Shown here: positions 9,840 to 14,130 of the stretch, piece after piece | Layout of the letters: every line of letters starts with the position of its first letter | How positions within the stretch are numbered: the first letter of the stretch is position 1 | Assembly: GCA_026707585.1 (NCBI GenBank) | Contig: JAPOWQ010000071.1 | Location: 1-44,509 of the forward strand | Reading direction: 5' to 3' | Length of the DNA stretch: 44,509 bases | Source of the DNA: Chloroflexota bacterium | GTDB taxonomy: Bacteria; Chloroflexota; UBA11872 | The notes under the pieces: generated by a model | Database searches by the model: none | Told to the model about the DNA's origin: nothing | What the model saw: only the letters and a program-made list of their open reading frames with translations | Made by a program: the position numbers and the translations under genes

Positions 9840-10725
9840 TCCCGTCGCCGACTGGGCGCCCCCTCCCGGCCGGCACGTCCAGGTTCCCGCCGGCGATTGC
9901 TTTGTCCGCGAATCGGGTGAGGGCCAGCCAACCATCGTCCTGCTGCACGGCCTCCCCGACGACTCCCGCATCTACGGCTGCCTGCAACCCAAGCTCGCCG
10001 CCGCCCATCGCACCGTCGCACCCGACTTCCTCGGCTGGGGATCCTCGCAGCCGAACGACGGGCTCTCGCTCGGTTTCGACATGTTGGACCGAACGCTCGC
10101 TCAGATCCTTGACGCGCTCGAACTGGATCGCGTCGTCCTGGTAGCCCACGACATGTCCGGCCCCGCGGCCATTCGCTGGACCGCCGCACACCCAGATCGC
10201 GCCCACGCCCTGGTGCTGCTGAACACCTACTACGGCTGGAACTCAGCCCGCATGCCGTTCGCCCTCAAGCTGCTCCACCTGCCCTACGCCGGGCGCCTGG
10301 TCCGGCGCTTTCTCGATGTCGGGCGCACCGGACTGTCGTGGCACGTCTACCGCTGGCAGGTCGGCCAGGTCTGGCCCGGCTGGACCGCCGATTTCGACCG
10401 CCTGCTACGGATCTTTCACGGTGTCTTCCGGCACTCACCCACCGCCCGTCAGGCCTTCCACACCGTCAACAACGAACTCGTCGACCAGATCGAATCCAAC
10501 CAGCGTAGCCTCGAAACCCTCACCGCCCTGGAGACGCCCACCCTCATCCTGTGGGGCGCCCGTGATCCCTATCTCAAGCCGGCTGTCGCCCGCCAGTTCC
10601 ACCGCCTGCTCCCTAGTTCAGAGCTTCATATGGTGGCCGACGCCGGCCACTTTGTTCAGCTTCAGGCACCCGACGAGATGGCTGACCGCATCCTGCGGGT
10701 CATCCGAGAGGCCGACCCCGGCTAG
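9829..10725 (+). CDS. Alpha/beta hydrolase (haloalkane dehalogenase/epoxide hydrolase type)
   Basis: The 298-residue protein has an alpha/beta-hydrolase core with the oxyanion motif LLHGLPDD (His40-Gly41), Asp108 in VAHDMSGPAA as nucleophile, Asp246 in GARDPYLKP as charge relay and His274 in AGHFVQLQAPD. An Asp nucleophile followed by Met-Ser-Gly places it with haloalkane dehalogenases and epoxide hydrolases rather than Ser esterases. The variable cap at about 140-215 is helical and Trp-rich. The dehalogenase halide-binding Trp next to the nucleophile is replaced by Met109, so epoxide hydrolysis or another activity is as likely. The gene overlaps the debranching-enzyme stop by 11 bp. It shares the CTAG stop palindrome with the convergent gene. 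Confidence 0.85.
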   Translation: MAADPVADWAPPPGRHVQVPAGDCFVRESGEGQPTIVLLHGLPDDSRIYGCLQPKLAAAHRTVAPDFLGWGSSQPNDGLSLGFDMLDRTLAQILDALELDRVVLVAHDMSGPAAIRWTAAHPDRAHALVLLNTYYGWNSARMPFALKLLHLPYAGRLVRRFLDVGRTGLSWHVYRWQVGQVWPGWTADFDRLLRIFHGVFRHSPTARQAFHTVNNELVDQIESNQRSLETLTALETPTLILWGARDPYLKPAVARQFHRLLPSSELHMVADAGHFVQLQAPDEMADRILRVIREADPG

Positions 10726-11513
10726 CTCGGCCGGCGCTGCCCAGGGGGGTGACGCTCGGAACGCACCGCATTCGTCCCGCCCCGCCGCAACTTCCGCGTC
10801 TCCGCCCGCGCATCGTCCCCCGGCCGCGCCCGGATCCCGGTGACCGCCCGCACCCCACCCACGATCGCCGCCCGCTCCTCGTCCGTCAGCGTCTCCCAGC
10901 GATAGTTGTGATCCGATTTCCGAATGAATTCCAAGAGCCGATCTCTAAGCGCCGACCACCCGCGCTGTTGCCGCGCTCGCAGCGTCGCGAGCCCGGGTCG
11001 CCGTCGCAGCGCCTCCCGCACATGCGGCAAACAGAGCGGATCGCCTTCCATGAGCGCCTCGTCCAGGTCGCGCTCGTCGCCGTGCTGCGTTAGCACGTCC
11101 AGCGCCCGTCCGGCTGCCGCAGTCTCCGCCTCGCACACCGGACACTTCGCGGGTCTCCTCGGCCGTCGCGAGTCCGTCCGCGCCAATCCCCGCAGCCTTG
11201 ACCTGACGCTCGCGAAGCCGCCGTCAACGCTGGTTTCCGGCGCGCCCTCCAGCTCCCGCACCAACGTGTTCAGGATGTCGCGATACGTGATGGCAACGGC
11301 CAGCGCGTCCAGCTTCTCAAGGAACTGCCCGGCATGAACCTCGCAGAACCCGCGCGCCTCCCGGATGTTGGCGCGCAGGTCTACGTCGTTAACGTGCTCA
11401 TAGATGTAGGAGCCCAGGAAGCGGTCAGCCCGGCGCGTGGCAAGGCGGCAGATCGCACACCCGGGCCGCCCCAACGCGTCCACCAGATCCTCAAACGTCG
11501 CTTCCGTGCTCAC
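10722..11513 (-). CDS. DUF6062-like protein with paired Cys motifs
   Basis: The 263-residue protein (GTG at 11513) contains CAIC near residue 19, GFCEVHAGQFLEKLDALAVA around 56, CPVC near 132 and LCLPHV near 165. This reads as two repeats of CxxC followed by CxxH, a likely metal-binding arrangement. The first half resembles my recollection of DUF6062 proteins. The function is unknown. A TTG at 11546 would add 11 residues; neither start has a strong ribosome-binding site. The basic, disordered C-terminus (RAETRKLRRGG and on) is not conserved-looking. The gene is divergent from the dehydrogenase at 11621 and its TAG shares the palindrome CTAG with the hydrolase stop. Confidence 0.6.
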   Translation of the reverse strand: MSTEATFEDLVDALGRPGCAICRLATRRADRFLGSYIYEHVNDVDLRANIREARGFCEVHAGQFLEKLDALAVAITYRDILNTLVRELEGAPETSVDGGFASVRSRLRGLARTDSRRPRRPAKCPVCEAETAAAGRALDVLTQHGDERDLDEALMEGDPLCLPHVREALRRRPGLATLRARQQRGWSALRDRLLEFIRKSDHNYRWETLTDEERAAIVGGVRAVTGIRARPGDDARAETRKLRRGGTNAVRSERHPPGQRRPS

Positions 11514-11620
11514 CGGGTCTCGATACTCAGTGGCATTTCTATGCAAGGTGCCACAACGGCGCTGCGGTTCGTGCTGCCGTCGCCCGTATACTCTGCCGCT
11601 CGCCTCCGGAAGCTGCTGCC

Positions 11621-12783: not shown

Positions 12784-14130
12784 ATGTTCGGCATTGGCGT
12801 CGCCGAGTTTTTCGCCGTTCTGGTCCTCGCGCTCATCGTGCTAGGCCCTGAGCGACTGCCACTCGCCATGCGCACCCTCGGCCGCTGGGTGCGCCAGTTG
12901 CGCCAGATGACTCGCGAGTTCCGCAAAGAATTCGCCGAAGAGTTCTCGATTCTCTACGAGGAGATGGACGTCCTGCGCCAGGAGGCCGAGAACACGCGCC
13001 AGGAGCTGGCCGACATCCGCGCCGAACTTTCGGACACGCTCCAGGGTGCGGCGGACGACGTAAACGTGGCCGGCCAGGGCATCGCGGACGACCTGCGCGG
13101 CGCGGTCAGCGCCGGTCAGACCGGAGCGGAGGCATCGCCGGGAGCCCCCAGCGCGTCGTCTGGGACCACATCGGCGCCGGCCTTGCCAGCGCCCGAGGCC
13201 AATGCCTCGGCGAAGTCAGCGTCTCCTACGCTCCCGAATCCCGCTTCGGATTCCGCGTCGACCTCTCCCGCGGCGCCGACGGAGCCGCTGGCAGCAGCCG
13301 ACGCCATGGCGCTGGCCATCAAGGACACCTTTACTCCAGAAACCAACGGCCAGGTCGACGTCACTCCGCCCGTAGCAGCCGTTGAGGAAACCGCGCCGCC
13401 TGTGTCCGATGGGGAACTGACGGCTCCGCAGTCGACCGGACGGGGACTCTCGGCGTACGCCCCGGACGTTAACGGATCGACCGAACCAGGACCGCCAACC
13501 CCTCCGGCGGAACCACCTTCAGTGGCCGCACCCGCGCCCGAGCCTGCACAGGTCGCCGCAACGGCGGCCACCACTGCCGACGATCCCGCGGCTCCGTCGG
13601 CGGCCCTCGGACCGCCGACGCCTGGTCTACAGAACCAGATGGGTGGCTTCATGCGGCTCATGGTGATGCAAGCGATTGACGCTGACCCTGACTTTGCCGA
13701 GCAAGCCGAAGCCGCCCTTCGCAGCCAAGCTCGAGTCGACGCCGAGAGCTTGGGCGACATTGAGGACCCAGAACCGCTGGACATTGCAGAGGCTTGGGCA
13801 GCTCGCCGCCGGCATCTGGTTCCGCACGACTCCGTTGAAGTCGATCAGCGTGCTGAATCGTCGGCCGTTATCGAATTCGGCGTCTGCCCGTACGGGCTGA
13901 CGCCTGGCAAGGACCATCCGGTCTGCAATGTGAGCAACGTCTACGACGACGAGTTTTTCAAGCAGTTCGACATGAAGGCTACCTACACCACACGCATGAG
14001 TGATGGCGCGGACCGCTGCCAGCTCATCATCCTCACTCACGCCCGCATGCGGCAGTTCGGACTCAAGATCGAAGACGACGACAGGCGCAAACGGGACGAA
14101 GCGGACGCCGAGCACGAGGCCGTGTTCTAG
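12784..14130 (+). CDS. TatB-like protein with fused C-terminal ATC-hydrolase-like domain
   Basis: The 448-residue protein starts with a TatA/TatB module: a membrane helix with Glu8 (GIGVAEFFAVLVLALIVLG), the hinge LGPERLP and an amphipathic helix. LGPERLP is closer to TatB than TatA. Residues 45-105 continue as a Glu/Arg-rich coiled coil. Residues 110-285 are a Pro/Ala/Thr-rich, disordered linker. Residues 287-420 form a globular domain with Cys368, Cys381 and Cys412 (FGVCPYG, HPVCNV, ADRCQLI). This pattern resembles the L-2-amino-thiazoline-4-carboxylate hydrolase family (PF14196), from memory. Tat topology puts it in the cytoplasm. TatB is normally 80-180 residues. No tatC is in the window. 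The frame is unbroken. Confidence 0.7.
   Translation: MFGIGVAEFFAVLVLALIVLGPERLPLAMRTLGRWVRQLRQMTREFRKEFAEEFSILYEEMDVLRQEAENTRQELADIRAELSDTLQGAADDVNVAGQGIADDLRGAVSAGQTGAEASPGAPSASSGTTSAPALPAPEANASAKSASPTLPNPASDSASTSPAAPTEPLAAADAMALAIKDTFTPETNGQVDVTPPVAAVEETAPPVSDGELTAPQSTGRGLSAYAPDVNGSTEPGPPTPPAEPPSVAAPAPEPAQVAATAATTADDPAAPSAALGPPTPGLQNQMGGFMRLMVMQAIDADPDFAEQAEAALRSQARVDAESLGDIEDPEPLDIAEAWAARRRHLVPHDSVEVDQRAESSAVIEFGVCPYGLTPGKDHPVCNVSNVYDDEFFKQFDMKATYTTRMSDGADRCQLIILTHARMRQFGLKIEDDDRRKRDEADAEHEAVF

Follow-up and report, generated by a model that had tools for sequence, protein, structure and literature searches.

The substrates of the Tat translocase are folded proteins, often carrying Fe-S or Mo cofactors, and how the translocase assesses the readiness of such cargo is an open question. 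Tat is known to distinguish cargo that contains cofactors, and a part in proofreading has been ascribed to TatBC (review PMC6708511). An open reading frame from a Chloroflexota bacterium, encoding a TatB-like protein of 448 amino acids that ends in a cysteine-containing globular domain, raises the question of what such a domain does on a subunit of this translocase. The gene lies in a stretch of 44,509 nucleotides (contig JAPOWQ010000071.1; hereafter the window), which belongs to a genome of 3.9 Mb in 75 contigs, about 96% complete. In the initial annotation, made from the window alone, the C-terminal part had been called ATC-hydrolase-like, and acting on substrates before export, sensing a cofactor or ligand, and holding substrates had been listed as its possible roles.

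The 448-residue protein is the only TatB candidate of the genome

Residues 2-74 matched the TatB family TIGR01410 with 65.3 bits (E 5e-18), above the equivalog cut-off of 56.5 bits, and residues 4-49 matched PF02416 with 24.1 bits (cut-off 21). Both the sequence and the structural model showed the layout of a TatB at the N-terminus, with a single transmembrane helix, a hinge (GPERLP) and an amphipathic helix, as in E. coli TatB and TIGR01410. The full-length model consisted of a transmembrane helix (residues 6-20), a single long helix (22-112) that overlaps the start of the linker, a low-confidence region (pLDDT below 50 at residues 111-280) and a globular part at about residues 282-425, with a tether of about 170 residues between the TatB part and the globular domain. 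The open reading frame, the TIGR01410 match and the model thus bore out the architecture proposed in the initial annotation (TatB module, coiled coil, disordered linker and globular domain with cysteines), and the structure prediction for which it had called returned a globular C-terminal domain. Cys368, Cys381 and Cys412 lie exactly where it had placed them and are the only cysteines of the protein. Whereas the C-terminal region of described TatB proteins is unstructured (PMC6708511), a folded domain of about 145 residues follows the long linker here. The coordinates of the features are given in Table 1.

Table 1. Features of the tatB-like gene in the window, and of the SufR-like and cysteine desulfurase genes of the same genome.
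Feature	Coordinates	Strand	Remarks
tatB-like gene with C-terminal sensor-like domain	12784..14130	+	ATG start, 448 aa; TIGR01410 match; one open frame in all 30 f1, f2 and f4 genomes
TatB module, residues 1-95	12784..13068	+	TM helix, GPERLP hinge, amphipathic helix, start of long helix/coiled coil
Pro/Ala-rich disordered linker, residues 96-281	13069..13626	+	pLDDT <50 at residues 111-280; length-variable
Short linker motif DAMALAIKDTF, residues 173-183	13300..13332	+	Predicted helix; conserved
C-terminal V4R/SufR-type domain, residues 282-425	13627..14058	+	AF2 model, Foldseek, profile-profile
Cys368 codon (CP motif)	13885..13887	+	Invariant in f1
Cys381 codon (X12 after Cys368)	13924..13926	+	Invariant in f1
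Cys412 codon (X30 after Cys381)	14017..14019	+	Invariant in f1
SufR-like regulator	L118:6010-6663	-	
NifS/IscS-like cysteine desulfurase	L118:4807-5976	-	

No tatC had been noticed near the gene, and none is present within the window; the single tatC of the genome sits on contig C26. The copy check proposed earlier returned, besides this tatC, two proteins of the TatA family, the 448-residue protein itself and a TatA-type protein on contig C65 (87 amino acids from its ATG), which matches tatAE at 57.4 bits, so that TatC and a separate TatA are both present in the genome. Because there is one tatC and one separate TatA, the 448-residue protein is the only TatB candidate of this genome. The tatA, tatB and tatC genes are found on three separate contigs (loci L092:5086-5910:+ and L093:6327-6590:-), and tatC is preceded by genes that, judged by eye, look like fatty-acid-synthesis genes (FabD-, FabG- and AccC-like). 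At these two loci, tatC and tatA were the genes identified by family search.

The fusion and its cysteines are conserved in three families

The class was sampled with 41 genomes, 30 from families f1, f2 and f4 (19, 5 and 6, respectively) and 11 from families f3 and f5. TatB and the C-terminal domain were encoded in one open frame in all 30 genomes of f1, f2 and f4, the copy in L061 being interrupted by a contig end, which rules out an assembly chimera or a frameshift; the fusion is therefore not absent from relatives, the outcome that the initial annotation had named as refuting. Profile searches did not find the C-terminal domain in the 11 genomes of f3 and f5 and, among 400 genomes of the phylum, found it fused to TatB in f1, f2 and f4 only. 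The TatB-like protein of the sister families f5 and f3 is also long, but it ends in a different small C-terminal domain. In f5, this domain matched UPF0175 (PF03683) with 31.5 and 32.2 bits (L081:2497-3987:+ and L082:979-2499:-; cut-off 27.9); matches were weaker in L083:1508-2446:-, L086:1494-2351:+ and L088:1754-2584:+, and some f3 members stayed below the cut-off.

The three cysteines are invariant across the 19 genomes of f1, where they follow the pattern C-X12-C-X30-C (C368-X12-C381-X30-C412 in the window protein), and the same pattern was found in two genera of f2. In f4, the pattern is C-X12-C-X2-C-X27-C, in which the X30 spacing is preserved and there is a fourth cysteine. In the proteins of two f2 genera (L025:883-1938:+ and L026:829-1920:+), all three cysteines are replaced, the first one by Asp in both, yet the domain is retained. 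These two proteins group together (support 97/93), both on long branches, which is consistent with one event of cysteine loss. Because the cysteines were lost and the domain was kept, the domain has a cofactor-independent use at least in this branch, such as interaction or dimerisation.

We estimated dN/dS between the window sequence and its close relatives by the simple Nei-Gojobori method, every pair including the window sequence. Values were about 0.02-0.03 for the C-terminal domain and about 0.00-0.03 for the TatB module, in comparison with 0.24-0.44 for the linker. This difference between domain and linker shows strong purifying selection on the C-terminal domain, which is thus conserved for function. 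The cysteine-free proteins L025 and L026 would fit a functionless fusion in which the piece of a regulator joined to TatB is decayed or neutral, but this explanation is strongly disfavoured, and we consider it hardly credible, in view of the dN/dS of the domain in close relatives and of its presence in every genome of the three families. Within the otherwise fast-evolving linker, the motif DAMxxAIxxTF is invariant in f1 (D173, A174, M175, A176, A178, I179, T182 and F183). A related version occurs in f2, and f4 gave no match; a role of this motif in docking is possible.

SufR-type regulators are the nearest relatives detected by profile searches

The search of the C-terminal region against PF14196 and the V4R families, suggested in the initial annotation, gave MetOD1 (PF18546) as the best Pfam match, at 19.1 bits and below its cut-off of 23.8. 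For PF14196 (ATC hydrolase), a search at E 10 gave no match to the window protein, and the relative L024 reached only 15.5 bits (cut-off 28.1), so that membership of the ATC hydrolase family was rejected. The isolated domain had no match in NCBIfam, and a sequence search of the PDB with the domain profile gave no match at E 10.

When the profile of the TatB domain was run against the 41 class and 400 phylum genomes, only two proteins were found outside TatB, L090 (E 2.5e-4) and L091 (E 4.6e-5). Each combines an HTH with a C-terminal CP-X11-C...C domain, which aligns with the TatB domain at the CP motif and at all three cysteines; the cysteine triad is the best match point between the TatB domain and its relatives. 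The best NCBIfam family of L090 and L091 was TIGR02702 SufR, over the full length, with 69 and 81 bits, respectively, under the equivalog cut-off, and L091 scored above the MetOD1 cut-off (30.5 bits; cut-off 23.8). In a profile-profile comparison, the TatB domains matched the SufR-like proteins of the phylum with E 1.3e-6 and a probability of 91%, while 30 column-shuffled controls reached at most 2%. The f2 domains alone gave E 1.3e-5 across 118 columns, and the matches of f1 alone (E 0.0016) and f4 alone (E 0.0036) were weak. In these comparisons it is the combined profile and f2 that carry the link to SufR, and SufR-type regulators are, by sequence comparison, the nearest detectable relatives of the domain outside TatB.

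The resemblance to SufR/ArsR-type Fe-S regulators (TIGR02702; Rv1460) extends to the C-terminal position of the domain, the CP motif, the C-X12-C spacing, the third cysteine and the profile homology. In SufR-like proteins of Chloroflexota the third cysteine follows after 25-28 residues (C-X12-C-X25-28-C in 30 of the 30 checked), whereas X30 precedes it in the TatB domain, which also has an insertion (SNVYD) after the second cysteine. SufR as a regulator class was set aside, since its defining N-terminal winged HTH is absent from the TatB fusion: Pfam and NCBIfam searches found TatB there and no match to an HTH, and the domain is tethered to a membrane translocase subunit rather than to a DNA-binding HTH. 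A likeness also exists to MetOD1, V4R (PF02830) and ATC hydrolase (PF14196), which share the fold group and a three-cysteine cluster; the MetOD1 authors described their domain as similar to HNOB, V4R and ATC hydrolase, with three conserved cysteines common to V4R and ATC hydrolase (PMC5847659). The window protein, unlike these families, lies below the curated cut-offs and has no REC domain.

Taken in the broad sense, the earlier label thus stood, since placement of the domain in the V4R/HNOB/TRAPPC3/ATC-hydrolase/MetOD1 fold group is well supported, and it found no support in the specific sense of an ATC-hydrolase or enzyme-like identity. It is very improbable that the domain works at the membrane as an enzyme of the ATC-hydrolase kind, be it on cargo or on some small substrate: the sub-threshold PF14196 scores of L024 and of the SufR-like L091 (19 bits) and the likeness remarked on by the MetOD1 authors (PMC5847659) speak for it, but the window protein is unmatched, the domain is nearer to regulators than to enzymes, and the cysteines are lost in one sub-branch. 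Among the roles listed at the outset, sensing of a cofactor or ligand is favoured over enzymatic activity because the nearest profile relatives are SufR-type transcription regulators.

Predicted fold and chemistry of the cysteines

The AF2 model of the C-terminal domain had a pLDDT of 84.4. Foldseek matched it to Bet3/TRAPPC3 (E 4.5e-4, probability 1.00, TM about 0.5, rmsd about 5.8) and, further down, to the MopR sensor domain and H-NOX; archaeal TRAPPC3 was also a fold neighbour. Since the TM-scores are modest and the rmsd is near 6, the match of the model to the V4R/TRAPPC3 fold holds at superfamily level only. Members of this fold group bind Zn, phenols, haem or acyl chains, or use disulfides.

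For SufR of M. tuberculosis (Rv1460), C203, C216 and C244 (X12, X27) are each required for function (PMC6034842). In ArnR of Corynebacterium, whose [4Fe-4S] sensor domain has been reported to belong to the same TRAPPC3-like fold superfamily, three cysteines are required for function and for the [4Fe-4S] cluster (PMC12343034). The TatB domain resembles ArnR in having three conserved cysteines (179, 193 and 223 in ArnR) in a C-terminal domain of that superfamily, a likeness of fold and pattern drawn without an alignment; ArnR, unlike the TatB fusion, is a transcription factor.

The strongest alternative to an Fe-S cluster is Zn or thiol chemistry. The cysteines could hold a Zn ion in a structural site or act as a thiol/disulfide switch, and the domain would then be a thiol redox sensor or a metal-stabilised interaction module. 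MopR and archaeal TRAPPC3 as fold neighbours, the Zn-bound TRAPPC3 noted in PMC12343034, the V4R-domain cysteines of MsvR, which act by thiol redox change without a shown cluster (PMC3729527), and the number of cysteines (only three in f1 and f2, four in f4) are in line with such a site. We nevertheless regard it as rather unlikely, the closest sequence relatives being SufR-type proteins, for whose cysteine triads the binding of Fe-S clusters has been reported.

The persistence of the domain without cysteines in L025 and L026 and the long flexible tether, together with the binding of hydrophobic ligands and partners by V4R/Bet3-fold proteins, would also suit a module for binding cargo or a chaperone, or a V4R/Bet3-like small-ligand pocket, serving in tethered docking or proofreading with the cysteines being secondary. 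This is unlikely, as the cysteines are invariant in all f1 proteins and kept in f4 with one extra, and as it is at the triad that the domain best matches its relatives.

Genomic context

The genome also encodes a SufR-like protein (C-X12-C), and the gene immediately downstream of it codes for a NifS/IscS-like cysteine desulfurase. This adjacency connects the domain family with the organism's Fe-S biology; a search with the TatB-domain profile gave no direct match to this SufR-like protein. Upstream of tatB there is an isocitrate/isopropylmalate dehydrogenase-like gene, which is shared in f1 (L096, L097, L104, L111-L113 and L116). Since the f2 and f4 stretches that were checked gave no match to it, it does not point to a function that would apply in general. 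A DUF6062 protein (10725-11546, minus strand; 45.9 bits, cut-off 27) is encoded near tatB as well, and homologues of it lie near tatB in f1 and f2.

A candidate sensor on the Tat translocase

The reading that we favour, tentatively and with somewhat less than even confidence, is that the protein is a TatB to which a SufR-like sensor of the [4Fe-4S] (or thiol/metal) kind is tethered, and that this sensor would modulate Tat export. A SufR-type sensing domain would be attached by the coiled coil and the linker to the tail of the organism's TatB, on the cytoplasmic side if TatB topology applies, and the tether would let it reach the TatBC receptor, the cargo or neighbouring TatB copies. Cys368, Cys381 and Cys412, with one non-cysteine ligand, may coordinate a cofactor that responds to oxygen, NO or iron, a [4Fe-4S] cluster being the most likely candidate. 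Loading, oxidation, loss or damage of the cluster could change the conformation or self-association of the domain beside the TatBC receptor, and this change might raise or lower the acceptance of folded cargo, above all of cofactor-containing redox enzymes. A stricter form of this proposal, in which a SufR-type [4Fe-4S] domain on TatB gates Tat export directly and post-translationally in three families of a single Chloroflexota class, we consider doubtful.

No TatB fusion or Fe-S TatB was found among the open-licence papers searched; the TatB half and the sensor half are each known, and it is their combination that was not found there. If the proposal is true, a translocase subunit that carries a domain of an Fe-S/redox-sensor family would be a direct physical link from cofactor or redox state to export, and the tail of TatB, which is generally regarded as unstructured, could carry regulatory domains. 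The UPF0175-like end of the TatB-like protein in the sister group indicates that such recruitment to the tail may be a wider habit in the class. The findings suggest that protein export in this group of Chloroflexota may be coupled to the cell's redox or iron-sulfur state.
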